Source: Embleya scabrispora (GTDB lineage Bacteria; Actinomycetota; Actinomycetes; Streptomycetales; Streptomycetaceae). From it: a stretch of 64,000 nt of DNA. The position numbers were made by a program, and so were the translations under genes. Below are positions 3,571-64,000 of this stretch, in pieces; positions within the stretch are counted from its first letter, which is position 1; each line of letters starts with the position of its first letter. The stretch spans positions 5,704,001-5,768,000 of the forward strand of contig NZ_MWQN01000001.1 in NCBI RefSeq assembly GCF_002024165.1. The letters are read 5' to 3'. The notes under the pieces were generated by a model. The model was not told the origin of the DNA. It was given only the letters and a program-made list of their open reading frames with translations, and did not search any database.

Positions 3571-3799
3571 TTTCCCACTCCCAAGTGTCTAGGTGTTGTT
3601 GGGGTGGAGCGAGTCGGCGCGGCGCGACCGCCCGGAGCCTGCTCCGGGCAGGCGGGCGCGACGACCTTCCTGCGTGGGGGCGCGTCCGCTCGACGGCACG
3701 GCGATCGGCCGTGCGGGGTCGGGCCGGTCCGGCCCCGGGGAGGCGTCTGCGCCGCCGCCGGGACCGTACTACGGTGGGGAAACCGGAACTGACGGTGTC

Positions 3800-6166
3800 T
3801 CAGGTCCCGGTGAGGTGTTCCGGCCGGATCGGCACCCGGTTCAGGGCCAGACCGGTCGCCGCGCGAATCGCCGCGACGATCGCGGGCGTCGCGGACAACG
3901 TGGGTGCCTCGCCGGCTCCGCGCAGCCCGTACGGGGCGTGCGGGTCGGCCAGTTCGAGTACGTCCACCGGCATCGGCGGGGTGTCGAGGATGGTGGGGAT
4001 CAGGTAGTCCGTGAAGGACGGATTGCCCACCCGTCCCTCGGTGACCACGATCTCCTCCATCACCGCCAGACCCAGCCCCTGGGTGGTGCCGCCGTGGATC
4101 TGGCCGAGCACCGCGAGCGGGTTCATCGCCTTGCCGACGTCCTGCGCGGCGGCCAGTTCGACCACCTTGACCAGGCCCAGCTCCACGTCCACGTCCACCA
4201 CCGCGCGATGTGCGCAGAAGGTGTACTGCACGTGCCCGAAGCCCTGTCCGGTGGTCCGGTCGAACGCCTGGGTGGGGCGGTGCCGGAACTCGACCGTCTC
4301 GTCCACGGGTTCGTCGCCGAGCAGGTCGACCAGGTCGGCGACGACCGCGTCGGCGCGATCGACCACCTTGCCGCCGACCAGGCGCAGGCCCGCCACGAGA
4401 TCGGGCGGCCAGCCGCGGCGAAGCCGGCCGCGCTCGAACACCGCGCCGCGCACGGCCTCGGCGGCCGACTTGACCGCGCCGCCCGTCATGTACGTCTGCC
4501 GCGACGCGGAGGTCGACCCGGCCGAGCCCACCCGCGTATCGGCCGGCGCGATGGTCACCAGGTCCACGCCCAACTCGGTGCGCACGATCTGCGCGTGCAC
4601 CGTGACGCCGCCCTGGCCCACCTCGGCCATCGCGGTGTGCACCAGCGCGACCGGCGCGCCGCCCACCACCTCGAGCCGGACCCGCGCGGTGGAGTAGTCG
4701 TCGAAACCCTCGGAGAAGCCGACGTTCTTGATCCCGACGCCGTAGCCGATCCCGCGTACGACGCCCTCGCCGTGCGTGCTGTTGGACACCCCGCCCGGCA
4801 ACTCGCGGACGTCCACACCGTCGCCGGTGTGCCGGTGCTCCGCCGCCGGCAGCGGCATCGCCTCGACCCGGCGCAGCAGTTCGGCCACCGGCGCGGGGGC
4901 GTCCACGACCTGCCCGGTGGGCAGCACCGAGCCCTGCTCCATCGCGTTCAGCCGCCGCAACTCCACCGGATCCAGGCCGAGTTCGGCGGCCAGCCGGTCC
5001 ATCTGGGACTCGTAGCCGAAGCACATCTGGACCGCGCCGAAGCCGCGCATCGCACCGCACGGCGGGTTGTTCGTGTACACGGCGGTCGCGTCGATCAAGG
5101 CATTCGGGACCACGTACGGACCGATCCCGAGCGAGGCCGCGTTGCCGACCACGGCGGGGGACGAGGACGCGTACGCGCCGCCGTCCAGCACGATCTCCGC
5201 CCGGACGAACACCAGTCGGCCGTCCCGCGTGGCGCCGTGCTCGAAGACCATCGTCGCCGGGTGGCGGTGCACGTGGCCGAAGAACGACTCCTCGCGGTTG
5301 TAGACGATCTTCACCGGCTTGCCGGTGTACTGCGCGAGCAGACACGCGTGCACCTGCATCGAGATGTCCTCGCGCCCGCCGAACGCGCCGCCGACGCCGG
5401 CCAGGGTCAGCCGTACCTTCTCCGGCGGCAGGCCGAGCACCGGGCACATCTGCTGCCGGTCCACGTGCAGCCACTGGGTGGCGATGTACAGATCGATCCC
5501 GCCGTCCTCGGCGGGCACCGCGAGCCCCGACTCCGGGCCCAGGAACGCCTGGTCCTGCATGCCGACCTCGTACTCGCCGCGCACGATCACCTCGGCCCGC
5601 GCGCGCACCTGCGCCGAGTCCCCGTCGCCGTGGCGGATGTGCTGGCTGTGCACGACGTTTCCCGAGGCGTGCGCCTTGTAGTCGGCCGGCGCGTGCACGT
5701 AGCCGTAGCGCTCCGGGTCCAGCGCCTGGGCCGGTCCGATCGCCGGCAGCACGTCGTAGTCGACCACGATCCGGTCCACCGCGCGCCGCGCCGTCTCGGG
5801 GTGGTCGGCGGCCACGATCGCGACCGGTTCGCCGTGGAAGCGCACCTCGTCGATGGCCAGCACCGGCTGATCGGCGATCTCCAGGCCGTAGAACTTGCTG
5901 CCGGGGATGTCCTCGTGGGTGAGCACCGCGTACACCCCCGGCAGGGCCAGCGCCGCGGACACGTCCACGGACCGGATCCGGGCCCGGGCGTGCGGGCTGC
6001 GCAGCGTGGTGCCCCACAACATGTCCTCGTGCCACAGGTCCGAGGCGTAGGCGAAGTCGCCCCTGACCTTGAGGATCCCGTCGGGACGCAGGGGCGACGC
6101 GCCGATGCCGTCCCGACCGGGCGCACAGACGTCCAGGAGGTTCTTCGGCATGGTGGGACCGGCCAT
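3800..6166 (-). CDS. Xanthine dehydrogenase, molybdopterin-binding subunit
   Basis: The 788-residue large subunit carries the molybdopterin site that hydroxylates hypoxanthine to xanthine and xanthine to urate. Visible cofactor-binding segments are GVGGAFGGREDIS, GAMRGFGAVQ, GQGGVTVHAQI and, near the C-terminus, GLRGAGEAPT with the catalytic Glu expected in GEAP. The N-terminal a/b hammerhead (RGDFAYASDL, LRSPHARARI) is complete. Length matches split, three-gene bacterial xanthine dehydrogenases. It starts 4 bases after the 2Fe-2S subunit stop. Family members also act on other N-heterocycles or aldehydes, but the PucR regulator and purine permease next to it favour purines. Confidence 0.92.
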   Translation of the reverse strand: MAGPTMPKNLLDVCAPGRDGIGASPLRPDGILKVRGDFAYASDLWHEDMLWGTTLRSPHARARIRSVDVSAALALPGVYAVLTHEDIPGSKFYGLEIADQPVLAIDEVRFHGEPVAIVAADHPETARRAVDRIVVDYDVLPAIGPAQALDPERYGYVHAPADYKAHASGNVVHSQHIRHGDGDSAQVRARAEVIVRGEYEVGMQDQAFLGPESGLAVPAEDGGIDLYIATQWLHVDRQQMCPVLGLPPEKVRLTLAGVGGAFGGREDISMQVHACLLAQYTGKPVKIVYNREESFFGHVHRHPATMVFEHGATRDGRLVFVRAEIVLDGGAYASSSPAVVGNAASLGIGPYVVPNALIDATAVYTNNPPCGAMRGFGAVQMCFGYESQMDRLAAELGLDPVELRRLNAMEQGSVLPTGQVVDAPAPVAELLRRVEAMPLPAAEHRHTGDGVDVRELPGGVSNSTHGEGVVRGIGYGVGIKNVGFSEGFDDYSTARVRLEVVGGAPVALVHTAMAEVGQGGVTVHAQIVRTELGVDLVTIAPADTRVGSAGSTSASRQTYMTGGAVKSAAEAVRGAVFERGRLRRGWPPDLVAGLRLVGGKVVDRADAVVADLVDLLGDEPVDETVEFRHRPTQAFDRTTGQGFGHVQYTFCAHRAVVDVDVELGLVKVVELAAAQDVGKAMNPLAVLGQIHGGTTQGLGLAVMEEIVVTEGRVGNPSFTDYLIPTILDTPPMPVDVLELADPHAPYGLRGAGEAPTLSATPAIVAAIRAATGLALNRVPIRPEHLTGT

Positions 6167-13240: not shown

Positions 13241-13412
13241 TACGCCGAATCCTGCCGCCGCCCGAGGGAAGCAGTCGATATCGACTGGCGGCAGGAGCGG
13301 GGGAACCAAGTGAGCCGACATCGGCACTGCCGATGCCTGGGGTGAAGCCATGCCTGTGACAGGCGAGGCCGGGCCAATCGTCCGAACCCGACAGCTAACT
13401 TCGTAGGCGCCC
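13241..13412 (+). ncRNA. Cyclic di-AMP (ydaO-yuaA) riboswitch in the rpf leader
   Basis: The leader shows the conserved core of the ydaO/yuaA class: CGCCGAATCCTGCC, then GGCAGGAGCGGGGGAACCA, then GGGGTGAAGCC, and at the 3' end CGAACCCGACAGCTAA followed by CGTAGGCG, which pairs back to the 5' TACGCC. The order and spacing of these blocks match the class that binds cyclic di-AMP. In Streptomyces and relatives this riboswitch commonly sits upstream of resuscitation-promoting-factor and other wall-hydrolase genes and lowers expression when the ligand is abundant. It ends 13 bases before the rpf ATG, so control could be by termination or ribosome access. Confidence 0.9.
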
Positions 13413-13425
13413 GACGAGGTAATCA

Positions 13426-14151
13426 ATGACCTTCCGTGCCATCACCGCTCCGGTTCGTTCGCTCTCTCGTGGCCGTCGCGCCGGCATCGCCGTCGCCGCC
13501 GGCGCGGGTCTCGTCCTTCCCCTCGTGGGCATGGCGGGCAGCGCGAACGCCGCGACTTCGTCCACCTGGGACGCGGTCGCCCAGTGCGAGAGCACCGGCA
13601 ACTGGAGCATCAACACGGGCAACGGCTTCTCCGGCGGTCTGCAGTTCACCCCGAGCACCTGGAACGCGTTCGGCGGCAGCCAGTACGCGGCCAGTGCCGC
13701 GCAGGCCTCCGAGGCGCAGCAGATCGCCGTGGCGGAGCGGGTCCTGGCGAGCCAGGGCCCCGGCGCCTGGCCGGTCTGCTCCGTGAAGGCCGGTCTGGGC
13801 AAGGGCGGCAACGCCAACGCCACGGCCGAGTCCTCGGCCACCGGCAAGACCAAGTCCTCGGTCGAGCCGAAGGCCGCGCCCAAGTCCGAGGCCAAGCCCG
13901 CGACCGGCAACGCGCCGAAGCTCAACGTGCAGCCCAAGCAGGACGTCGCCAAGCAGGACGCGCCGAAGTCGGCCGCGACCGGGCGGGCGTCGGGCTCCGG
14001 CACCTACACCGTCAAGTCCGGTGACACGCTGTCCGCGATCGCGGCCAAGTTCGGTGTCAAGGGCGGCTACAAGGCCCTGCACGCGGCCAACGCCGGCGTC
14101 ATCGGCGACAACCCGAACGTGATCGGCGTGGGCACCAAGCTCGCCGTCTGA
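13426..14151 (+). CDS. rpfA: Resuscitation-promoting factor: secreted Rpf domain plus LysM
   Basis: A 241-residue secreted wall lytic enzyme. A signal peptide covers about residues 1-43 (AGIAVAAGAGLVLPLVG, cleavage near SANA-A). The Rpf transglycosylase-like domain follows at about 45-122, with the catalytic Glu in AQCESTGNWS and the family-typical GGLQFTPSTWNAFGG and a C-terminal Cys in WPVC. A Lys/Ala/Pro-rich linker (~125-190) leads to a LysM domain (YTVKSGDTLSAIAAKFG) that binds peptidoglycan. GAGGT lies 6 bases before the ATG. Rpf proteins cut peptidoglycan and help spores or dormant cells regrow. The upstream riboswitch suggests control by c-di-AMP. The symbol follows Streptomyces use. 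Confidence 0.93.
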   Translation: MTFRAITAPVRSLSRGRRAGIAVAAGAGLVLPLVGMAGSANAATSSTWDAVAQCESTGNWSINTGNGFSGGLQFTPSTWNAFGGSQYAASAAQASEAQQIAVAERVLASQGPGAWPVCSVKAGLGKGGNANATAESSATGKTKSSVEPKAAPKSEAKPATGNAPKLNVQPKQDVAKQDAPKSAATGRASGSGTYTVKSGDTLSAIAAKFGVKGGYKALHAANAGVIGDNPNVIGVGTKLAV

Positions 14152-14165
14152 TCCACCCGCACCAC

Positions 14166-14204
14166 CACGTGGGCCCCGTCGAATACCTCGGCGGGGCCCA
14201 CGTG
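14166..14204 (+). terminator. Rho-independent-type terminator hairpin after rpf
   Basis: A perfect 13-bp inverted repeat (CACGTGGGCCCCG at 14166-14178, complement at 14192-14204) with a 13-base loop lies 15 bases after the rpf stop. There is no strong U-run, as is usual in high-GC actinomycetes. Confidence 0.75.
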
Positions 14205-14418
14205 CGTTCGGTGGGGCCGAAGCGGGGCGGTCGGGCGCGTTCCCCGGCCGATGGTTCGGCTGCGGACTTCGCGGGAACGAGATGATCGCATTCCCAACTT
14301 ATTCGGGCAAAACGTACTGGGGACGATAAGATTGCGTTTGAATCCGCCTTGCCACGTGAAATTCTTTTGACATAGGTTCATCTGGCCGTGGTTCCTGCGT
14401 TTCCCTTGAGGGGGTTTC

Positions 14419-54578: not shown

Positions 54579-55280
54579 GTGACCGACCCCAATGACCTCG
54601 ATGTCCCACCGGCTTTCTCGCCGTCCGCAGCCGCCTCCGCACGGGGGGTGATGGCGCTAACCTGCGAGCGTGTGGCCGCGACATTGGCTTCGTACGAGCT
54701 GCGGGTGATGCCGTCGACCGTGGCCCAGTGGGAAGCCGGTACGGAACGCCCGAACGAAGCCGAACTGCTCGCCCTCGCCAAATCCTTGGTCGTGCCCGTG
54801 AGCCGACTGATGGGCGGCCGGCCGACCAACCTCCAGGACCACCGGATCGCGGCCGGCCTCACCCGTGCCGAACTGGCCAAGCGGGTGCGGATGCGGGAGG
54901 TGGGCTACACCCGGCTCGAACGGGCGAACAAGTGGCGGGCCGACGAGGAGCGGACCGGATTCCTGGTCCGCGCGCTCGGCCTTTCCATGCAGGACCTGGC
55001 CGAAGTGTCGGGTGTCGGCCCGGAGTTGGAGAATCTGCTGGCCGAGGCCGTGGTGGGCCGCTGGAAGACGCAACTGCCCGACATCACCCGGCTGATCGGG
55101 ATGCGCCGCAAGCGCATCGGCGAGGTGCTCGAGGTGCTCAGTTCGGTCTTCCCCGAGGGCATGGACGTGGCCGACGTGCCGCGGGCCGCCGTGGTCGAGC
55201 GATTCTGGGGCCTGCTCGGCGACCCGGTCGCCGACCCGGGCGCGCCCGGGGTCTGGTTGCTCCAGGGCCGCTTCGCCTAG
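54579..55280 (+). CDS. XRE-like helix-turn-helix regulator, unusual double-repeat layout
   Basis: A 233-residue protein with two helix-turn-helix-like segments. The first is near residues 25-70 (MALTCERVAATLASYELRVM, then STVAQWEAGTERPNEAELLA), the second near 85-130 (NLQDHRIAAGLTRAELAKRV, then MREVGYTRLERANKW). The C-terminal 90 residues are helical with no recognised domain. GTG at 54579 is only 7 bases after TATGCT, so the mRNA may be leaderless, which is common in actinomycetes. A long terminator hairpin follows. Targets are unknown. Confidence 0.7.
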   Translation: MTDPNDLDVPPAFSPSAAASARGVMALTCERVAATLASYELRVMPSTVAQWEAGTERPNEAELLALAKSLVVPVSRLMGGRPTNLQDHRIAAGLTRAELAKRVRMREVGYTRLERANKWRADEERTGFLVRALGLSMQDLAEVSGVGPELENLLAEAVVGRWKTQLPDITRLIGMRRKRIGEVLEVLSSVFPEGMDVADVPRAAVVERFWGLLGDPVADPGAPGVWLLQGRFA

Positions 55281-55292
55281 AACCCGTTCGGT

Positions 55293-55332
55293 GTGCCGGT
55301 GCCTCGGAACACCCGTTCCGAGGCACCGGCAC
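55293..55332. terminator. Bidirectional terminator between convergent genes
   Basis: A perfect 17-bp stem (GTGCCGGTGCCTCGGAA at 55293-55309, complement at 55316-55332) with a 6-base loop lies between the XRE gene and the convergent anti-sigma gene, so it can serve both. Confidence 0.85.
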
Positions 55333-55353
55333 CGGTACCGGCACCGCCCGCGG

Positions 55354-56112
55354 TTACACCGGCACGCTGACCAGCGTGCCCCCGTCGGACGTGCGTACGT
55401 CGAAGCGGGCCAGATCGCCCTTCGGGGTCCAGGTCCCGGTCTGCAGCACCAGCGGGGCCTCCGAGCCCGGGACGCCGTAGCCCTTCGGCGGCACCATCCA
55501 GGAGGAGATCTGCTGCTCCTTCCCCGCCCTGTCGACCGCGACCAGTGAACACTTCAACGGGCCGCGGACGTTGCGCAGTTCGAGCGCCAGGTTGGTACCC
55601 CACGCCTTGTTCTCCAGGGCGATCCGCGCGACGGCGCCGCCGTTCGGCCCGGTCGCGGCCACCACCTGCCCGTTCGCGGCGATCACGGCCATCGGGTCGC
55701 CCGGCACCACCCGGGTCGCGGTGGACGACTCGTCCTTGAACCAGGTCCGCCCGGTCAGTACGCCGGCACCCAGGCCGATCACCAGAAGTGCCACGCACGC
55801 GGCGATCAGCAACGAGCGCCGCGGCACGCGGCGGGCCACCCGGCGCGCGGCGAGTTCGTCCACGGGAGCAGCCGCCGCCGGCGGAGCTACGGCCGGCCCG
55901 GTCGGCGCGGGTTCACCCCTGGTCTCCGGCAGCTCGTACACCCCCTCGTCGCGCAGCTCGGTCAGCAGCGTGGCCATGCCGGAGAAGTCCGCCAGCTCGT
56001 CCAGGCAGCGCTCGCACGTGGCCAAATGCTCCTCGAACGCCTCCCGGTCGGCCGGTTCCAGCAGTCCGAGGGCATACGCGCCGACATCCGCGTGTTCGGG
56101 TTGGACGCTCAT
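55354..56112 (-). CDS. Membrane anti-sigma factor with zinc finger and RskA-like domain
   Basis: A 252-residue anti-sigma protein. The cytoplasmic ZAS motif HLATCERC (residues ~29-36) follows an N-terminal ALGLLEPADREAFEEH. A Pro/Ala-rich linker leads to one membrane helix near residues 100-122 (SLLIAACVALLVIGLGAGVL), and the rest is an extracellular RskA-type beta domain (SSWMVPPKGYGVPGSEAP). Such proteins release their sigma factor after regulated proteolysis. Its ATG overlaps the sigma stop by 4 nt, so the two are coupled. Confidence 0.9.
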   Translation of the reverse strand: MSVQPEHADVGAYALGLLEPADREAFEEHLATCERCLDELADFSGMATLLTELRDEGVYELPETRGEPAPTGPAVAPPAAAAPVDELAARRVARRVPRRSLLIAACVALLVIGLGAGVLTGRTWFKDESSTATRVVPGDPMAVIAANGQVVAATGPNGGAVARIALENKAWGTNLALELRNVRGPLKCSLVAVDRAGKEQQISSWMVPPKGYGVPGSEAPLVLQTGTWTPKGDLARFDVRTSDGGTLVSVPV

Positions 56113-56672
56113 GACGACACCCCCCTCTCCTCCAGGACGACCCGCAGGGCGCGCAGCGCGTAGTACACGCGCGACTTCGCCGTACCGGCCGGGATGCCGA
56201 GTACGTCGGCCGCCTGATTGACAGTACGGTCACGGAAGAAGGTTTCGATCAAAATTTCCCGGTGCGATGCGGAAAGCGCGTCCAGCGCGTCGCCGACCAC
56301 GACCGAGCGCAGCAGGCGGTCGACCTCGTCGCCGGTGGGCAGCGTGGCCAGCCGCTCGTCGCCGATCTCCGGCGGGCGGGCCGAGCGGGCCCGTTGTTCG
56401 TCGATGACCAGGCGGCGGGCCACGGTGACCAGCCACGGCAGCAGCGGGGCGGCGGGATCCAGCTTCTCCCGGTTGCGCCAGGCGCGGACCAGCACCTCCT
56501 GCACGCTGTCCTCGGCCCGCTGGCGGTCGCCGCCGTTCAACCGCGAGACGACCGCGAGCAGCGGTCGGGAATACTCGCGGTAGAGCATCGCGACGAACCT
56601 GGTCTCATCGTCGCCACCCGGCGGGTCGTCGGTACCCGGCGGGCCCGACCCCGGCGTGTCCACATCGGACAT
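56109..56672 (-). CDS. ECF-family sigma factor paired with an RskA-like anti-sigma
   Basis: A 187-residue ECF sigma: region 2 near residues 25-95 (YREYSRPLLAVVSRLNGGDR, then EDSVQEVLVRAWRNREKLD and VTVARRLVIDEQR) and region 4 near 125-180 (LDALSASHREILIETFFRDR, then VNQAADVLGIPAGTAKSRV). ATG at 56672 is preferred over a longer start at 56726 because GAGGAGG lies 8 bases upstream. It is followed by its anti-sigma gene with a 4-nt overlap. A twin repeat (GTCCCCGGAAC) lies upstream of it at 56709-56740. Confidence 0.92.
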   Translation of the reverse strand: MSDVDTPGSGPPGTDDPPGGDDETRFVAMLYREYSRPLLAVVSRLNGGDRQRAEDSVQEVLVRAWRNREKLDPAAPLLPWLVTVARRLVIDEQRARSARPPEIGDERLATLPTGDEVDRLLRSVVVGDALDALSASHREILIETFFRDRTVNQAADVLGIPAGTAKSRVYYALRALRVVLEERGVSS

Positions 56673-56708
56673 CCGCGACGGCCTCCTCACCCCGTAGTCG
56701 GGATCCGA

Positions 56709-56740
56709 GTCCCCGGAACCGCACACACCGTCCCCGGAAC
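56709..56740. promoter_or_regulatory. Twin 11-bp direct repeats upstream of the sigma gene
   Basis: GTCCCCGGAAC occurs at 56709-56719 and 56730-56740, 21 bases apart (two helical turns), upstream of the ECF sigma start. The pair could be an operator or part of an autoregulated promoter region. Confidence 0.45.
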
Positions 56741-56928
56741 TGGCAATACCCTAGGGGAACCGGAATCGCGCCTCGGCCGGGCCGGCCCGCCGCCGTCGAT
56801 GGGGCCGGGGCGGCGTCGCGGTGTCGGCGGTGGCCGCGACGGTGCCGGCGCGAGGCCGGGGGCCGTCCCGTCGACGGGATCCGGGCATTTCGGGCGACCC
56901 GGCCGGCACCGTTTCGGCGACCGGTCGG

Positions 56929-57774
56929 TCAGCGCCGCAGCTCCAGCGTGCAGCACTTGGTGTTGCCGCCGGCCTTCAGCAGCTCGGTCAGGTCGATGCC
57001 CTGGGGGACGTAGCCGCGCTCGCGCAACTGCGGGCCGAGGAGCGGAACGGCGCGCTCCGGGAGCAGTACGTGCCGGCCGTCGGAGAGCGCGTTGAGCCCG
57101 AACGTGGCGGCGGCGGCCTCGTCGGCCAGGATCGCGTCCGGGAAGCGCTCGGCCAGGACGCGGCGGCCGGCCTCGTCGAACGCCTCCGGGTAGTACATGA
57201 TCTCGTCGGGACCGAGCACGGACAGCGCGGTGTCCAGGTGGTAGAACCGCGGGTCGACCAGGGTCAGGCCGAGTACGGGCAGGCCGAAGAACTCGCGGGC
57301 CTCGTCGTGCGCCCGCGGATCGCTGCGGAAGCCGCTGCCGGCCAGCAGTTGGCCGCCGACCAGGAGGAAGTCCCCCTCGCCCTCGTTGACGTACTCGGCC
57401 TGGTGGACCTCGGCCCAGCCGTCGGCGCGGAACCAGTCGAGGTAGGCGGCGGACTCGTCGACGCGCTGTCGGTGGCGGAAACGGGCCACCAGCACCCGGC
57501 CGTCCACGACGGTGGCGCCGTTCGCCGAGAACACCATGTCGGGCAGTCCGGGCACCGGTTCGATCAGCGCCACGTCGTGCCCGAGCGCGACGTAGGCGTC
57601 GTGCAGGCGTTTCCACTGGGCCAGACCGGTGTCCGCCGACGTGGGCACGCTCGGGTCCATCCACGGATTGATCGAATAGGTGACGTCGAAGTAGGTCGGC
57701 CGGCACATCAGATAGCGGCGCGGTCGAACCGTTCGGTTGTCGTGCGGAGTTCGTTCGGTACCTGTCTGGGGCAC
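56929..57774 (-). CDS. Dimethylargininase-like amidinohydrolase
   Basis: A 281-residue pentein-fold protein of the guanidino-group-modifying superfamily. Features are RRYLMCRPTYFDVTYSINPW, PDMVFSANGATVV, GEGDFLLVGG, the catalytic His region in DPRFYHLDTALSVLG and the C-terminal active Cys in AGGNTKCCTLELRR. This pattern and length fit actinomycete dimethylargininase (hydrolysis of methylated arginine to citrulline and dimethylamine); related proteins act on arginine. Start is GTG at 57774; a Met at about residue 23 is an alternative. It stands alone, with a long gene-poor region upstream. Confidence 0.85.
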   Translation of the reverse strand: MPQTGTERTPHDNRTVRPRRYLMCRPTYFDVTYSINPWMDPSVPTSADTGLAQWKRLHDAYVALGHDVALIEPVPGLPDMVFSANGATVVDGRVLVARFRHRQRVDESAAYLDWFRADGWAEVHQAEYVNEGEGDFLLVGGQLLAGSGFRSDPRAHDEAREFFGLPVLGLTLVDPRFYHLDTALSVLGPDEIMYYPEAFDEAGRRVLAERFPDAILADEAAAATFGLNALSDGRHVLLPERAVPLLGPQLRERGYVPQGIDLTELLKAGGNTKCCTLELRR

Positions 57775-58578
57775 GTTGATTCCCTTGTTCTCCGTGATTG
57801 TGTCCGGGGGATGAAATCAATGCCGAATTCGGCGGTGTGCGACACCGGAGGAAAACACGGTGTGCGCCCGATGGCGCGGGCATACCGGAAAAGAGCGGGA
57901 TTGCCGCCGATCGAAACTAGCACGAGGTTCGACCGGATATCCGTCCCGTTGACAGGACAGCCGTCGATTCGGTCGACGCGGTGCCGTGAAAGCGGTTCGC
58001 GACGGGTCGCGGCGGAGATCGCCAATCGCGCTTTCCGGCGGACCTGCGGCCGTATTTCCCACCGACGCGGGCGTCGCCGCCCGAGCCGGCGAGGTCGGGG
58101 TCCGACCCGGCGGAGCGAACCCGGGACGACCGAGGCGAACGCCCACGCGACCGAGCGGGCGCTCACGCCCGCACTCGGGTCCGCATCCACATCGACGCTC
58201 GCATCGGCACCCACATCGCACCCGTATCGACGCCCGCATCGACACCCGGATCGGCCTCCCCGATCACCCCCACGACCCCCGTGTCCGATCGCGCGCGCGA
58301 CACGCCGCGCACCCCGACAGCTCCCCCGAGACCGTTCCGGCACTTCTTCCCGTCCGGTCGCACCCCGCCGTGGCGCCGACACACGGCGTGTTCGCCGGCC
58401 GGATCGCGTCGCCGACGCGACGTCCATCGAGACGTCGACCCGGTATTCGAAACAACCATCCGGATGGTGATCGGAGGTTCCCCGTCACGCCTTGCCGTGA
58501 ATATCCGAGGGCGGTGCGTTAGGAAGGCGTCAATACGCATGAGTAGCCGAGTGGGGAGCGGTCCGCTTCGTCTATAGT
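57775..58578. other. Long gene-poor region upstream of the dimethylargininase-like gene
   Basis: About 800 bases without a convincing gene. Open frames on both strands here are Arg/Pro/Asp-rich without recognisable motifs and look like high-GC shadow frames. The notable content is a degenerate tandem repeat near 58181-58258 with units close to CGCATCGACACC. Confidence 0.55.
58181..58258 (+). repeat. Degenerate ~12-bp tandem repeat (CGCATCGACACC-like units)
   Basis: About six units of 10-14 bases around CGCATCGACACC occur in series with substitutions and small length changes. The sequence reads as Arg-Ile-Asp-type repeats in one frame, but no start or ribosome-binding site supports translation. 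Confidence 0.6.
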
Positions 58579-59038
58579 GACCGCCCCGCAAGAGCGGTCG
58601 AAGTGTAACGCCGAGTGTGCCGGGTCCGGGCCTGCGGCCAACCGATTGCCTTTCCTGCGGGTTGGCTTGTGGGACGATCCGGTTGGTCGATTCATTCCCG
58701 CCGTCGGCGAAATGCCGATGAACACCAACCCAACAGTTGCGTAGGCAATCGGTCGCGAACTGTCAGTGGTTGGTTCCTTGATTTCCGGGAGTTGCTGAGA
58801 TCTACTCGGGTAGGCCCGAAGAGCACCACTTCGAATGTGGATCTTCGGGAGTCGGCGGGGGTGTGCCGCCGACAGCCGCAACGCCAACGGGGATCTGTAA
58901 AGAGGCGAACGGGGCAAACCGCTGATGCACGCATTCGTACACATATCGACCATGTTCGGCCCTGGCACCATGCCCTGGGCATGGTGTAGCCACATGCCTC
59001 CGGAAGCCGTGTCGCCGATCACCCGGGTGGGGGTGATC
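58579..59038. ncRNA. Dense run of strong hairpins upstream of lmbU; candidate structured RNA
   Basis: Six stem elements occur in about 460 bases. (1) GACCGC 58579-58584 with 58594-58599. (2) A nested structure: ACCGATTGCCT 58641-58651 pairs with 58743-58753, GGGTTGG 58659-58665 with 58725-58731, and an apical TCGGC/GCCGA at 58704-58718. (3) CCCGAAGA 58815-58822 with 58842-58849 plus inner CCAC/GTGG. (4) GTCGGCGG 58851-58858 with 58866-58873. (5) CACCATGCC 58966-58974 with 58978-58986. (6) GATCACCC 59017-59024 with 59031-59038. Base composition appears less GC-rich than neighbouring genes. It could be a long lmbU leader, an independent RNA, or the remnant of a mobile element. Strand is not certain. 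Confidence 0.45.
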
Positions 59039-59208
59039 CGTAGGCGACCGGTGACACCGGAGCCCGCGGCGGGGCCGTTGGTCCACTGAATGCGGATCGG
59101 TTTATCGGGCACACCCCATAGCAGAACTCCCTGGGGCAGCGCACTGCGCAAACAGCGGTTATGACCTGCGCACTATTTGCTTGTTCGAGCATGCACGCAC
59201 ATGGAGGC

Positions 59209-59934
59209 ATGGTGGCGAACCAGACGAGAGTTCACGATCGTGAGAGAGAGGCGCAGCTGCACTCGGGACCGGGAGTGGTCGCCCGCCCGCGAAGAGCTGT
59301 CAGGGAAAGTCCGCATTGCGGGCGATTGCTCACCACAAAGGTGGGTCTGCAAATCCCGGCCGACATGACCTTCGAGGATTGGGAGCAAGCCGGGCGTAAA
59401 CTCTCGGGAATCTTGGATTCCTCGTCGTGGTGGCTCGGCGACTGGTTGGTATACGGAAAAGATCACTATACCGACCTGTATCAGCGAGGGATACGCGCAG
59501 CGGGGTTAAGCTACCAGACGCTCCGGAATTATGCGTGGGTCTCCAGGAGGTTCGACTTCGATCGTCGGCGGTCCGCGCTCAGTTTCCAGCATCATGCCGA
59601 GCTGGCCTCGTTGCCGATCGGTGAACAGGAACTGTGGCTCGACCGCGCGGAACAGATGAAGTGGACCACCAAGCAGCTGCGCAACGCTATCCGCGATGCG
59701 CGAGCGGACGAAGGGCGCGACGGCCGGCAGATCGAGGCGACCCGTCGTCTCGCCGTGCCCGGTGATCGAATCCAGTGGTGGCACAAGGCCGCCGAACATT
59801 CCGGAATCGACTTCGAGCAATGGGTGCTCGCGACCCTCGACAACGCCGCCGAGCGGGTGCTCGAGGACGCCATCGAGGTCGCGCTGGAGGAGGTACAGGA
59901 GGGCGTGCCGCAGGAGGCCGGCGTCGGCGTCTGA
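59209..59934 (+). CDS. LmbU-family transcriptional regulator
   Basis: A 241-residue protein of the LmbU family, known from lincomycin (LmbU), novobiocin (NovE) and hormaomycin (HrmB) clusters, where members regulate antibiotic genes. The conserved core is LLTTKVGLQIPADMTFEDWE, then SSSWWLGDWLVYGKDHYTD, GLSYQTLRNYAWVSRRF, ALSFQHHAELASLPIGEQ and WTTKQLRNAIRDARADE. ATG at 59209 or GTG at 59212 are possible, with GGAGG just upstream; the first 45 residues are poorly conserved. It is preceded by the hairpin-rich region. No full antibiotic cluster is visible, so it may control the nearby N-monooxygenase or genes elsewhere. Confidence 0.88.
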   Translation: MVANQTRVHDREREAQLHSGPGVVARPRRAVRESPHCGRLLTTKVGLQIPADMTFEDWEQAGRKLSGILDSSSWWLGDWLVYGKDHYTDLYQRGIRAAGLSYQTLRNYAWVSRRFDFDRRRSALSFQHHAELASLPIGEQELWLDRAEQMKWTTKQLRNAIRDARADEGRDGRQIEATRRLAVPGDRIQWWHKAAEHSGIDFEQWVLATLDNAAERVLEDAIEVALEEVQEGVPQEAGVGV

Positions 59935-60086
59935 CCGATCCGGCCGCGGAGTGGCGCGCGGGAACGGACCGGCACGGGCGCTGACGGCCCGGAAGTCCGG
60001 TACGCCCCGCCCGACTTCCCGCACCGGTGGGCCGAGGGGCCCGCGCTCCGGGTCGAGCGCGGGTCCTTCGGCAGGCCGGGCCGCGG

Positions 60087-60731
60087 TCAGGGCAGGCGGC
60101 TCATCAACTCGGCCGTGGCGCGATGCCGCGTGCACCCGCGCTCGTCGAACGAGCGCCGCACCCGGTCCCGCACCTCGCCGGGTTGTTCCTGGCTGAGCTT
60201 GAACATGCCGTCGGCCCTGGTCACTCGGATCCGGAAGGCGCCCACGCCGCCCACGATGCTGCGGAAGTACTCGACCGATTCGGTCATGTCCCATCCCGTC
60301 CCGTGCTCGCTTTCGAAGGCTCGGACGGTGGACCTCACCACGCCCAGCGTCTCGTCCGCCGAATCGATCTTCTCCACCGTGCCGCGCAGGTGTACCGAGG
60401 TGAAGTTCCAGGTCGGCGCGGCCGGCGTGATCTCGTACACGGTCGGCGAGACGTACGCGTGCGGTCCGGTGAAGGTGAGCAGCACGGTGCAGCCGTCGGT
60501 CAGTGCCCGCCAATGCGGATTCGCCCGGTTCATGTGTCCGAGCAACGTGACACCGACCAGGTCGTCGCTCCATTCGGTGTGCCGCTCGGGGTCGAGGATC
60601 ACCGGCAGGTGTGTGGCGAAGGGCCCGTCCTCGGGGCTGCCGTTCAGTGCCACGAGCGCCAACGGATTTCTACGGATCAACTCGACCATCCACGAACCGT
60701 CCGGTTCGCGGTACTCCCGGGGAACGAACAT
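60087..60731 (-). CDS. PaiB-like FMN-binding protein
   Basis: A 214-residue protein of the PaiB/FMN-binding negative regulator family (split-barrel flavin-binding fold). It begins MFVPREYREPDGSWMVELIR and contains LVALNGSPEDGPFATHLPVI, VTLLGHMNRANPHWRAL, TFTGPHAYVSPTVYE and GAFRIRVTRADGMFKLSQEQ, all family-typical. ATG at 60731 gives the normal N-terminus; a longer start is less likely. PaiB in Bacillus affects sporulation and protease genes, but many members are probably flavoenzymes or flavin reductases. It is convergent with lmbU and divergent from the N-monooxygenase. Confidence 0.88.
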   Translation of the reverse strand: MFVPREYREPDGSWMVELIRRNPLALVALNGSPEDGPFATHLPVILDPERHTEWSDDLVGVTLLGHMNRANPHWRALTDGCTVLLTFTGPHAYVSPTVYEITPAAPTWNFTSVHLRGTVEKIDSADETLGVVRSTVRAFESEHGTGWDMTESVEYFRSIVGGVGAFRIRVTRADGMFKLSQEQPGEVRDRVRRSFDERGCTRHRATAELMSRLP

Positions 60732-61114
60732 CCGGAACTCACCCTTTCGGTGACCTGGTGCAGGGCGCGGCTCCACGACGACGGAGCCGGAGTCCTTGGT
60801 ATGGATACGAGCGGGGTGCCGCCGCGGCGGGTGTGTTGTCCCGTCGGCAGGACGGCGTACTCCGCTGCATTGCGACCGAGCCCTTGAAAGGTGTGCCCGG
60901 CCCCTCTAAGTTGAAGCTGCGGTGCTTCCCGGCGCAATACCGAATGCGTTTCTCCCGGATCTCCGGTCGAGAGATGCGAGAACCGCCGACAAGGCTCGAC
61001 GATGATTTCCGCTGAATTCCAGGACGCCCGACCAGGGCCCCTTCCCGGTTTCCGTGACCGACCCGTCGAGATACCGAAGTCCCTGTCGCCGCCACGCTAG
61101 CGAGAGAGTATTCT
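60732..61114. other. Divergent intergenic region, 383 bases
   Basis: This gap holds the promoters of the PaiB-like and N-monooxygenase genes. A short hairpin, CGGCTCC at 60768-60774 facing GGAGCCG at 60783-60789, lies in the PaiB leader region. I looked for an iron-box palindrome (TTAGGnnAnnCTAA type) before the N-monooxygenase and saw none. Confidence 0.5.
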
Positions 61115-62431
61115 ATGGGTACTTTTGCACATGAAATCTACGACGTGGCGGGCATCGGATTCGGGCCCTCCAATCTGTCCCTGGCCATCGCCCTGGAGGA
61201 GTACGGGGACGCCGGTCGCAACGGATCCCCGGACGGACCCGGGGCGATATTCTTCGAGCGGCAGCCCGCGTTCGGCTGGCATCGCAATATGTTGCTGCCG
61301 ACCGCGACCATGCAGATCTCGTTCATGAAGGACCTGGCCACGTTCCGGAACCCGGTGTCGCGGTTCAGCTTCGTGTCGTATCTGCACGAGGCGGGCCGGC
61401 TCGCGCAGTTCGTCAACAACCAGGACTTCTTCCCGACCCGCCAGGAGTTCCACCAGTACCTGGAGTGGGCCCAGGCGAGCTTCACCGACCGGGTGCACTA
61501 CGGCTCGGAGGTGGCCGCGATCCGGCTGCCGGCGGGCGTCGACCCGGCCTCGGCAGAGCATCTGCGCCTGGAGATCCGCGACGGCTCCGGCACCCGCACG
61601 GTCGACGCGCGCAACGTGGCCATCTCCACCGGCCTGGTGCCGCGCCTGCCCGACGGCATCCAGGCCGACGAACGGGTCTGGCACAGCTCGGAGTTCCTGG
61701 ACAAGTACAGCCGGACCGACCCGACCGGGCTGCGCACCGTGGCGGTGGTCGGCGCGGGCCAGAGCGCGGCCGAGATCACCCGGTTCCTCTACGACGAACT
61801 CCCGCACGCCCGGGTCTACTCGATCATCCCGTCGTACGGATACTGCGTGGCCGACGACACCCCGTTCGCGAACCAGGTGTTCGACCCGAGCGCGGTGGAC
61901 GCGTACTACTTCGGGACCGACCGCACGCGCGAGGCGTTCTGGCAGTACCACCGGAACACCAATTATTCGGTGGTCGACGACGAGGTGATCCGCGACCTCT
62001 ACCGGCGCTCGTACGACGAGGAGGTGCGCGGGGTCGAGCGGTTGCACTTCCTCAACCTGACCCGGGTCGACGAGGTCAAGCGGGCGGGTGACGAGACGCG
62101 CGTGTCACTGCTGTCGCTGCTCGACGACGAATCGCCCGAACTGGACGTGGACGCGATCGTGTTCGCCACCGGCTACGAGGCGATGGAACCCAGCCGCCTG
62201 CTGGGCGAGTTGGACCGGTACTGCCTGCGCGACGAGGCCGGCCGGCATCGGGTGGACCGGGACTACCGACTGGTCACCTCTCCCGAACTGCGCTGCGGCA
62301 TCTATCTCCAGGGCGGTACGGAGCACACCCACGGGCTGACCTCCTCGCTCCTGTCCAATCTCGCCATCCGCAGCGGTGAGATCGCCGAGTCGATCCTCGG
62401 CCGCCGGCCGGCGGAGGCCCTGCACGGCTGA
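61115..62431 (+). CDS. L-ornithine/L-lysine N-monooxygenase
   Basis: A 438-residue class B flavin monooxygenase (SidA/IucD/PvdA type) that would hydroxylate the side-chain amine of ornithine or lysine using FAD and NADPH. The FAD site is VAGIGFGPSNLSLAIALEEY, the substrate loop is PTATMQISFMKDLATFRNP, the NADPH site is VAVVGAGQSAAEITRFLYDE and the C-terminal FATGY motif is VFATGYEAMEP. Sequence order suggests an ornithine enzyme, as in siderophore or piperazic-acid (KtzI-like) pathways. No NRPS, siderophore synthetase, formyltransferase or piperazate synthase gene is visible in the window. Confidence 0.9.
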   Translation: MGTFAHEIYDVAGIGFGPSNLSLAIALEEYGDAGRNGSPDGPGAIFFERQPAFGWHRNMLLPTATMQISFMKDLATFRNPVSRFSFVSYLHEAGRLAQFVNNQDFFPTRQEFHQYLEWAQASFTDRVHYGSEVAAIRLPAGVDPASAEHLRLEIRDGSGTRTVDARNVAISTGLVPRLPDGIQADERVWHSSEFLDKYSRTDPTGLRTVAVVGAGQSAAEITRFLYDELPHARVYSIIPSYGYCVADDTPFANQVFDPSAVDAYYFGTDRTREAFWQYHRNTNYSVVDDEVIRDLYRRSYDEEVRGVERLHFLNLTRVDEVKRAGDETRVSLLSLLDDESPELDVDAIVFATGYEAMEPSRLLGELDRYCLRDEAGRHRVDRDYRLVTSPELRCGIYLQGGTEHTHGLTSSLLSNLAIRSGEIAESILGRRPAEALHG

Positions 62432-62449
62432 CGTCACCGATACGAGCCG

Positions 62450-63172
62450 CTACTTCCCCGCGGGCAGGCGATCCACCACCTCGCCCGCGGGGGGTGCGAC
62501 GGGCACGCACGAGCGTTCGCTGCGGGTGATCCTCGCGTTCTGCGGACGGGTGCCCTCGGAGCGGATGACGACGGGATACGGCTTGCCGTACGCCCGCACG
62601 TAGACCGTGCGCGACCGCCGCCGACCCTGCGCGTCCCCCTCCCCGTCGACCCGGGTGAGGGGGATCAGCGTACGGCCGTCGATGGTGACCGGTTCGCCCT
62701 TGGTGTAGCCGTCGGCACCGGGTCCGAAGACCACGCCGACCGTGTCCAGGGGATCGGCCGGGTCGTACGCGAGCATCGCGTAACGATCGGCGTACGTCCG
62801 CCTGTTCGCGGCGGTGTCGGGCAGGCTCGGACCGGCCCACTCCCAGAACTCGGCGCCGGCTTTGAGATAGGACTTCCCGCCGACCACGATCGCCTCGCCC
62901 GGGTGCCCGTTCATCTCGAACGTGCCCCGGTAGTCCCGGCCCTCGCGCACGCACAGATCGAAGTCGACGCGCCTGGTGGAGGTGAGCACCTGGTCGCCGA
63001 CGATGCGGATGTCGTCGGCGCCGCGGAGCAGGCTCGCCGACTCGCGGACCAGGTCCCGTGCGTCCCGGTCGACGTTGGACTCCAGCGCGTCACCGACACC
63101 GGCGCAGCCGGCGAGCGCGGCGCAGCAGAGGACGACCGCCGTGGCGGTCACGGCCATTCGGGATGTGTACAC
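62450..63172 (-). CDS. Putative lipoprotein, unknown function
   Basis: A 240-residue exported protein with lipobox AALAGCAGVGDAL (Cys near residue 23). After it, the sequence ASLLRGADDIRIVGDQVLTS, with GHPGEAIVVGGKSYLKAGAE, resembles the LppX/LprAFG-like lipoprotein fold, in which a membrane-anchored protein carries a lipid or hydrophobic ligand; this resemblance is weak. GTG at 63172 has GAGG 6 bases upstream. It is convergent with the N-monooxygenase (18 bases apart). A role with the methyltransferase upstream on the same strand is possible but not supported. Confidence 0.65.
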   Translation of the reverse strand: MYTSRMAVTATAVVLCCAALAGCAGVGDALESNVDRDARDLVRESASLLRGADDIRIVGDQVLTSTRRVDFDLCVREGRDYRGTFEMNGHPGEAIVVGGKSYLKAGAEFWEWAGPSLPDTAANRRTYADRYAMLAYDPADPLDTVGVVFGPGADGYTKGEPVTIDGRTLIPLTRVDGEGDAQGRRRSRTVYVRAYGKPYPVVIRSEGTRPQNARITRSERSCVPVAPPAGEVVDRLPAGK

Positions 63173-63219
63173 GACGTTCCTCGCCTGCGAGCCCGGGAAA
63201 CCGACGGGGGTACGGCCGG

Positions 63220-64000
63220 TCAGGGTTTGATGCCGACGGCGCCGTAGCCCCAGACGTTCTCGACCTCGTCCAACGGGTGTTCGGGTTCGCCGTCCGGGTT
63301 CCAGTGGGTGCGCAAGCCGGGTTCGACCAGGTCGAACCCGGTGAACATGGTGCGGATCTCGTCGTAGGGGCGCATGGTCATCTCGGCCGAGGCGTTCTTC
63401 CAGCCCTCGGCGCCCTTGCGGCCCTGGTGCGGGTTGGCGTCGAAGGACGCGTGCGAGAGCAGCAGCATGCTTTTGGCGGGCAGCGCGTCGCGGAGCCGGG
63501 CGACGATGTCGTGCGGTTTCTCGTCGTCGCGGATGAAGTGCAGGATCGCGACCAGCATCAGCGCCACAGGCTGATCGAAGTCGATGACCTCCAGCACCTC
63601 CGGCGCGGACAGGATGTCCTCGGGCGCGCGCAGATCGGCCTGGGTGAACGTGGTCCGGCCCGGACCCGCGTCGGTCATCAGCGCCCGCCCGTGCACGAGC
63701 ACGATCGGGTCGTTGTCCACGTAGGCCACCCGGGCGTCGGGGGCGATCTCGTGGGCCACTTCGTGGGTGTTGCCCGAGGTGGGGATCCCGGTGCCGATGT
63801 CCAGGAACTGGCGGATGCCCCGGCGGGCCGCGTAGCGCACGGCGCGGCGCAGGAAGAGCCGATTGAGCCGGAGGGAGACCGCAAGGTCCGGGATCGTCGC
63901 GACGATGGCGTCGGCGGCGGCCCGATCGACCGCGAAATTGTTCTTGCCGCCGAGAAGGTAGTCGTAGATCCGGGCGGTATGCGGAACGGTCGTCACGATC
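63220..64000 (-). CDS. SAM-dependent methyltransferase of the DUF574 type, probably 5'-truncated by the window
   Basis: A protein of at least 258 residues with the family opening TARIYDYLLGGKNNFAVDRA, the SAM-binding RQFLDIGTGIPTSGNTHEVA and RVAYVDNDPIVLVHGRALM, and LLSHASFDANPH and YDEIRTMFTGFDLVEPGLR further on. A GTG at 63996 could be the start, but family members usually have 10-20 more N-terminal residues, so the gene probably extends beyond 64000. These proteins are abundant in actinomycetes; the methyl acceptor is unknown. Confidence 0.85.
   Translation of the reverse strand, partial: IVTTVPHTARIYDYLLGGKNNFAVDRAAADAIVATIPDLAVSLRLNRLFLRRAVRYAARRGIRQFLDIGTGIPTSGNTHEVAHEIAPDARVAYVDNDPIVLVHGRALMTDAGPGRTTFTQADLRAPEDILSAPEVLEVIDFDQPVALMLVAILHFIRDDEKPHDIVARLRDALPAKSMLLLSHASFDANPHQGRKGAEGWKNASAEMTMRPYDEIRTMFTGFDLVEPGLRTHWNPDGEPEHPLDEVENVWGYGAVGIKP

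Follow-up and report, generated by a model that had tools for sequence, protein, structure and literature searches.

A probable cis-regulatory region and 5' leader in front of an LmbU-family gene beside piperazate genes in Embleya

Our results suggest that positions 58579-59208 of the 64-kb stretch of DNA analysed here (the window) serve an LmbU-family gene, which heads a conserved lmbU-ktzT-ktzI (piperazic acid precursor) module, as its cis-regulatory region and 5' leader, a reading to which we give a probability of about 0.62. A regulated promoter with flanking operator-like sites would most likely set lmbU transcription, which would most likely start near 58813, driven by TTGATT/TCTACT; another start is possible near 58585. 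The upstream box and the two leader blocks listed in Table 1 would serve as regulator sites, and lmbU would be translated from its GGAGG through a leader of ~395 nt. Going by the described role of LmbU and by the gene context, its product presumably switches on the piperazate genes. The region is thus most likely an ordinary regulatory region with an interesting leader whose RNA role is unproved. An earlier note on this DNA, made from the letters alone, had offered an elaborate leader controlling lmbU as one of three readings; a control region and leader of lmbU is what we find, and control through RNA structure was not shown. To our knowledge, little has been established on how LmbU-family genes beside piperazate genes are themselves switched on. 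The literature that we searched, mostly at the level of listings, held no description of the promoter or leader of these genes.

The regulator itself had been named correctly in that note: its product matches NCBIfam NF038070 with 227.5 bits (curated cut-off 125) over residues 44-213, covering the full profile. On its 3' side lie a convergent piperazate synthase gene and then an ornithine N-hydroxylase gene. The translation of the former contains MFKLSQE, i.e., KLSQ flanked by M and E, which marks piperazate synthases as opposed to PaiB-like regulators (PMC10888640; here and below, statements on published systems follow excerpts of the cited papers).

Table 1. Features of the region upstream of lmbU and of the adjacent genes (window positions)
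Feature	Position	Strand	Detail or basis
Conserved upstream box GTTAGGAAGGCGTCAATAC, candidate activator site	58518-58536	+	E. scabrispora alignment; genome search
TATAGT, possible -10 of an upstream promoter	58573-58578	+	sequence; putative function
Nested stem structure	58641-58753 (58641-58651/58743-58753)	+	11 bp, 113 nt overall
-35-like hexamer TTGATT	58778-58783	+	pattern search across loci
-10-like hexamer TCTACT	58801-58806	+	17 bp after TTGATT; pattern search across loci
Leader hairpin 1, CCCGAAGA/TCTTCGGG	58815-58822/58842-58849	+	stem listing; fold
Leader hairpin 2, GTCGGCGG/CCGCCGAC	58851-58873	+	perfect 8 bp, 58851-58858/58866-58873, within 58846-58858/58866-58878
Conserved leader block GGCGAACGGGGCAA	58904-58917	+	spacing from -10-like hexamer across loci
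Conserved leader block TGATGCACGCATTCGTACACATA, candidate operator	58923-58945	+	imperfect 6-4-6 inverted repeat
Leader hairpin CACCATGCCC-T-GGGCATGGTG	58966-58975/58977-58986	+	10 bp stem
Further stem	59017-59024/59031-59038	+	stem listing (others exist too)
Ribosome binding site GGAGG of lmbU	59203-59207	+	inside conserved CACATGGAGGCATG
lmbU-family regulator gene	59209-59934	+	start ATG 59209 or GTG 59212; NF038070 match
Piperazate synthase gene, KtzT-like	60087-60776	-	PF04299; PDB 9ebk, E 1.5e-99; MFKLSQE
Ornithine N5-hydroxylase gene, KtzI-like	61115-62431	+	PDB 4tlx (KtzI), E 3e-172

Promoter-like pair and operator-like sites

Conservation across Embleya and Streptomyces is found mainly in short blocks, namely the promoter-like pair, the upstream box and the two leader blocks. 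The pair, TTGATT-N17-TCTACT, spans 58778-58806. Relative to Embleya hyalina, the closest named genome (LmbU 99% identical; leader 92.9% over 831 bases), divergence per site is 0.023 in 58770-58812 (1 change in 43 sites), 0.088 in 58600-58770, 0.042 in 58813-58930, 0.122 in 58960-59090 and 0.033 in lmbU. Of 53 loci, 22 carry TTGAnn-N15..19-TCTACT in front of lmbU, with a spacing of 17-18 in every match, none on the opposite strand and a shuffle mean of 0.02; the 53 loci take in the window and count two species twice (L002 and L003 are those of L011 and L012). In the other 31 loci the pair is absent. Seven of 30 further loci also carry it, three being the same Embleya loci and two having the spacers of L033 and L048. 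Among 19 genomes picked as carriers, 17 contain the strict form TTGAWYN{15,16}GWTCTACT a single time (reversed control 0), and all 17 matches lie at lmbU, by coordinates or by identical spacer sequence; in the two genomes without it, G004 and G443, lmbU has a variant. Across groups the hexamers and the distance between them are constant, and the spacer sequence varies. A reading of the conserved core as a hairpin, CCGGG-TTCTA-CTCGG, was dropped for this reason.

Sigma-70-type promoters of Streptomyces have TTGAnn and a spacing of 17-18 bp. The pair resembles them in both respects, TTGAnn with a spacing in the 16-18 bp range being present, but TCTACT departs from the -10 consensus of our scan (A at position 2, T at position 6) by lacking the A at position 2; the scan returned no consensus promoter in the region, and we therefore call the pair promoter-like only. 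The hexamers alone are not specific, since only seven of the 42 matches to a looser pattern, spread over 37 of 297 genomes, lie at lmbU, and the reversed control gives more matches (about 86). Some of the matches away from lmbU recur between genomes with TTGAC at -35, as would be expected of ordinary promoters. The pattern CTTGAAYCTN{8,18}GGTTCTACT, which does not fit the Embleya form, had no match in 394 genomes of the family, so the Streptomyces form is rare. For the possible upstream start, no -35 match was seen before TATAGT; TCTATAGTGACCGCC, at this hexamer, is also present in E. scabrispora (the named-genome locus L012).

The upstream box, as GTTARGAANGCGTCAANAC, occurs once per genome and always upstream of lmbU in the four of four genomes picked as carriers. 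Two conserved blocks lie 103-144 nt past the -10-like hexamer. The block GGCGNACGGGGCGA, in the window at 58904-58917, lies 87-105 nt past it in 10 of 13 loci; in L018 it has three mismatches through an inserted base, and L024, L033 and L048 have no good match at the expected place. In 10 of 18 chosen genomes, the degenerate pattern of the block at 58923-58945 is matched perfectly at one place, which is lmbU every time, and its remaining matches carry 2-3 mismatches; with three mismatches allowed it matches 269 of 297 genomes, too loose to discriminate. In its repeat, TGYACG-N4-CGYACA, Embleya and Streptomyces each deviate in a different half-site, which would suit a protein operator better than a stem. 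Lying about 110-130 nt past the putative start, this block could be the place for a roadblock repressor.

Further repeats and motifs were seen. A unit ACGGGGCGAGTAGTTGA is tandemly doubled in the leaders of six loci (L013, L016, L019, L028, L030 and L060), the second copy ending in TTGATG. A two-mismatch copy of the leader block TGATGYACGNATNYRYACACATR lies on the reverse strand of L185, from base 1936, at an ATG (G000 and G001). The frame opened by this ATG presumably resembles an ornithine/diaminopimelate decarboxylase, and the copy is either due to chance or a shared operator. In the close Streptomyces group a palindrome, TTCGANNNTCGAAAAG, stands ~40 nt ahead of the promoter pair; we did not retain it as a site for the window, whose lmbU has none. 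Searched exactly, it gave six matches across 16 genomes, each of them at lmbU; once a single mismatch is allowed, 15 of these 16 genomes match, nearly all away from lmbU.

A known counterpart is the lmbU promoter region of Streptomyces lincolnensis, for which a reporter with 329 bp of upstream sequence was used (PMC6510168). It is likewise the upstream region of an LmbU-family gene, but it belongs to the lincomycin cluster, which differs from the cluster here, and the two are likened by description. In that species, lmb genes are activated by LmbU, which acts as a repressor on its own promoter, and a site CGCCGGCG was reported for lmbA and lmbW (PMC6510168). We rejected this site for the leader: it has no match in 55884-64000, the nearest in the window being at 55876.

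Stems, folding and short frames of the leader

The stem elements described in the earlier note are present in the inverted-repeat listing, and the region is indeed poorer in G+C than its surroundings (0.622 vs 0.714 in the window). The density of hairpins is another matter. Perfect stems of at least 7, 8, 9 and 10 bp number 10, 5, 2 and 2, above shuffled sequence (P 0.012, 0.002, 0.044 and 0.004; for at least 8 bp, 5 vs 1.1 in shuffles), but close to ordinary for the window, where 48%, 21%, 28% and 2.8% of equal blocks have as many, so that the two longest stems alone stand out. Likewise, 24% of equal blocks have a mean fold z (120-nt windows) as low as that of the region, -0.51. The region had been called the strongest non-coding signal of the window, a rank that was not confirmed: 16 of 1065 windows fall below its lowest z, and the window contains a riboswitch. 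The latter is a c-di-AMP riboswitch (RF00379) at 13263-13425 on the forward strand, with 48.3 bits against a gathering score of 38. The lowest fold z values of the 64-kb scan, at 55261-55380 (-7.3) and 14101-14220 (-6.8), are far under those of the region. We propose that most of its hairpins are by-products of G+C-rich non-coding DNA.

Individual pieces do fold stably, the nested structure (within 58630-58765) reaching -57.2 kcal/mol with z -3.0 in a stretch that was picked, 58807-58935 a z of -2.1 and the 627-nt stretch 58584-59210 a z of -2.8 (20 shuffles). The nested structure was not found in E. scabrispora, where it has only a 24-nt match, and appears lineage-specific as far as tested. 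Against E. hyalina, the 47 substitutions in 58584-59208 break 13 predicted pairs, with 15.3 expected under random placement (P 0.22), and make one double change vs 0.5 expected. By piece, the broken pairs are 1 vs 2.7 in 58630-58765 (P 0.13), 2 vs 1.3 in 58807-58930 and 3 vs 4.0 in 58955-59075. Judged from these substitutions, pairing over the region is not preserved. Nor do known families account for it: near the region there is no Rfam match at gathering score, the only match in 57700-60000 at E up to 5 being ilvB-OMG at 58362-58420 (11.2 bits vs a gathering score of 95.9), and 16 related loci gave one tRNA and nothing else. We thus rejected a known RNA family, and the new structured RNA once suggested for this stretch is not shown for this organism, given the missing Rfam match, the pairs not preserved and the nested structure not found in E. 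scabrispora.

Could a structured RNA of ~100-120 nt nevertheless lie directly past the promoter, sense some signal and control lmbU by attenuation or ribosome access? Such an element would contain hairpin 2 and, in Streptomyces, a closing stem of its first ~35 nt with the GGTCGAGGC that precedes GGCGNACGGGGCGA; we consider it rather unlikely. In the covariation analysis of homologous lmbU-upstream regions called for by the earlier note, hairpin 2 lay above shuffles and slid controls, the 15-pair structure with the closing stem not rising above shuffles. Counterparts of hairpin 2 could be aligned from E. scabrispora, from nine Streptomyces of the close group and from two more distant Streptomyces, their letters changed and mostly paired. 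Counted by itself over 14 sequences of three groups, the window included, it has 92.3% of cells paired, six double-change cells and a covariation score of 0.301, each measure reached by 0 of 500 shuffles and lower in slid versions, which slightly raises the odds of the RNA reading. Yet the hairpin comprises only five pairs, and double changes occur in two of these (against 1.7 in shuffles, with 350 of 500 reaching as many), the sequences are related and the shuffle counts could be reached through relatedness alone, and an inverted repeat may also serve a protein as its site. For the hairpin near 58966-58986, 75.9% of cells are paired (1 of 500 shuffles), with six double-change cells (6 of 500) and a score reached in 19 of 500, but slid by one column it scores 0.200 vs 0.212 with the same three pairs and six cells. 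It alone was counted on alignment A2, because the Embleya block is set against the second repeat copy of the close group. Near this position, E. scabrispora and Streptomyces have hairpins of other sequence.

The ends of the putative element gave a further hint. We compared the pairing of the first ~35 nt past the promoter with the 3' segment of their own leader or of the leaders of other species, and own ends paired better than mixed ones (P 0.00055 with 13 loci, 0.00095 with 11), with none of 528 other segment pairs as extreme, the best of the grid being a neighbouring pair in the same domain, and with z -3.27 on the sense strand vs -2.43 on the reverse complement. Controls gave P 0.37 for a downstream segment and 0.08 for an inner segment pair. 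The choice of these segments was made by eye once folds had been seen, two loci (L024 and L018) were positioned manually, and the test covers 11 or 13 of 20 promoter-bearing loci. The signal moreover comes mostly from one clade, z falling from -3.27 to -1.11 without the close Streptomyces group and to -2.23 without L018 alone, and the window's own leader ranks 12th of 13. The distance from the -10-like hexamer to GGCGNACGGGGCGA is kept in 10 of 13 loci despite the turnover of the intervening sequence, in favour of an RNA element, but folding past the promoter is unexceptional: the mean z over 20 loci is -0.88, with six below -1.5, within the range of the controls (reverse complement -1.09, with 8 below -1.5; upstream -1.10, 5; lmbU -0.62, 5; next 120 nt -0.11, 2). 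Sequence-based consensus folds of 18 loci were near -1 kcal/mol, and 57700-60100 holds no terminator-like site. Part of the conservation past the start goes beyond what a promoter explains: hairpin 2 covaries, and sequence comparison weakly suggests an RNA domain past the promoter in the Streptomyces relatives. These signals are hints, not a finding, and one hairpin among them includes the window. Taken to their furthest, they would describe a new leader-RNA class of ~120 nt past the promoter of lmbU genes beside piperazate genes, made up of a covarying hairpin whose loop is rich in G, a closing stem that in Streptomyces ends at GGTCGAGGC and the tail GGCGNACGGGGCGA. Such an RNA might sense ornithine, piperazate or the translation state and gate the pathway regulator, the Embleya form having diverged; we regard this as unlikely and speculative.

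Short frames in the leader raise another possibility, that ribosome movement over a short ORF ending ~120 nt past the -10-like hexamer (..EA-Y/N-GA..) and over a second short ORF is coupled to lmbU expression. Five distant loci (L014, L015, L049, L056 and L058) have a G-rich site before GTG GTC/ATC .. GC. TAC/AAC GGG GCG (in L049, GTG GTC .. GCG TAC GCG GCG). In the nine close loci this frame has its TGA stop 16-17 nt upstream of the start codon (ATG) of an ORF of 35-36 codons. In the three Embleya its TGA stop and the ATG of a 54-codon ORF overlap, and a GTG lies in frame 60 nt ahead of that stop. However, the start position differs between groups, the nearest usual start in Embleya being inside hairpin 2, and L030 has CTG where the other close loci have GTG. 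The second ORF shows only a weak third-position excess in the nine close loci (variable columns 8/8/11, pairwise differences 91/121/177), and the ORF at 58925-59089 has no codon-position bias (5/8/5). We find such coupling quite improbable.

Coding signal is lacking more generally, in agreement with the initial impression of a region without a convincing gene. Substitutions relative to E. hyalina by codon position are 3/1/20 in lmbU, and flat in the tested leader ORFs (5/8/5, 8/9/6, 20/18/12, 7/5/6 and 7/8/8), counts that show selection on lmbU and none on the leader ORFs, as far as this comparison reaches. Two ORFs inside the region have no Pfam match, and with these results we rejected a protein-coding stretch on either strand in Embleya. 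The attenuator in the lmrC leader of the lincomycin cluster, part of a cascade leading to lmbU transcription, is alike in its long leader, hairpins and short ORFs (PMC8546547), but it precedes lmrC, not lmbU, and has an intrinsic terminator, of which none was found here; the short frames present here carry no coding signal in Embleya. Finally, a remnant of a mobile element or decayed gene, also raised in the earlier note, would fit a gene-poor region with lower G+C and inverted repeats, but we deem it highly improbable and the suggestion unsupported: the conserved blocks hold the same position before lmbU in other species, and the region is single-copy in the genome at E 0.001 and has no Pfam match in its two ORFs.

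The piperazate gene neighbourhood

Of the 50 named-genome loci (L011-L060), 46 have a KtzT-like and/or KtzI-like gene close to lmbU, the four others being L015 and L018 (both with a short stretch after lmbU), L041 and L045. Among 30 other loci (1.5 kb of flank only, some repeats) 13 have such a neighbour, and 15 of the 17 without one have LmbU proteins of 44-54% identity. The ktzT-like gene at 60087-60776 is likely part of an LmbU-controlled module. In L012, lmbU and ktzI are ~560 bases apart (3726-4283) with no ktzT-like match between them.

The lunaemycin cluster (Lun16-Lun18) and its himastatin counterparts likewise have an LmbU regulator beside piperazate synthase and ornithine N-hydroxylase (PMC9866976). 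Unlike that case, the window has no NRPS condensation domain: of the 45 matches in its own genome none falls in the window, and the nearest on the contig, at 5906899, lies about 139 kb past the window end. The piperazate synthase and ornithine hydroxylase genes (60087-62431) sit with lmbU ~139 kb or more from the condensation domains found on the contig, and may be an orphan piperazate supply module or one that serves a distant cluster. One of the related loci, L030, is from Streptomyces aurantiacus JA 4570; the activator ArtB, from the aurantimycin cluster of this strain, belongs to an HTH family that is uncharacterised (PMC5031334).

Other genes lie on the upstream side. A dimethylargininase-type gene lies upstream of lmbU in the window (56929-57774, reverse strand; NF045659, 413.5 bits), and relatives are also near lmbU in L033, L071 and the other Embleya. 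In L036, L044, L053 and L059, the reading frame before lmbU is one that we take to be ArgD-like. Such neighbours suggest ornithine supply. An ECF-type sigma factor and anti-sigma-like pair lies upstream of the region (55354-56726, reverse strand).

If the RNA hints hold, these leaders would form a new class. The cis-acting sites in front of lmbU, which are unique or seldom found in the genomes searched, would offer precise points to probe with reporters and a handle for activating silent piperazate clusters.
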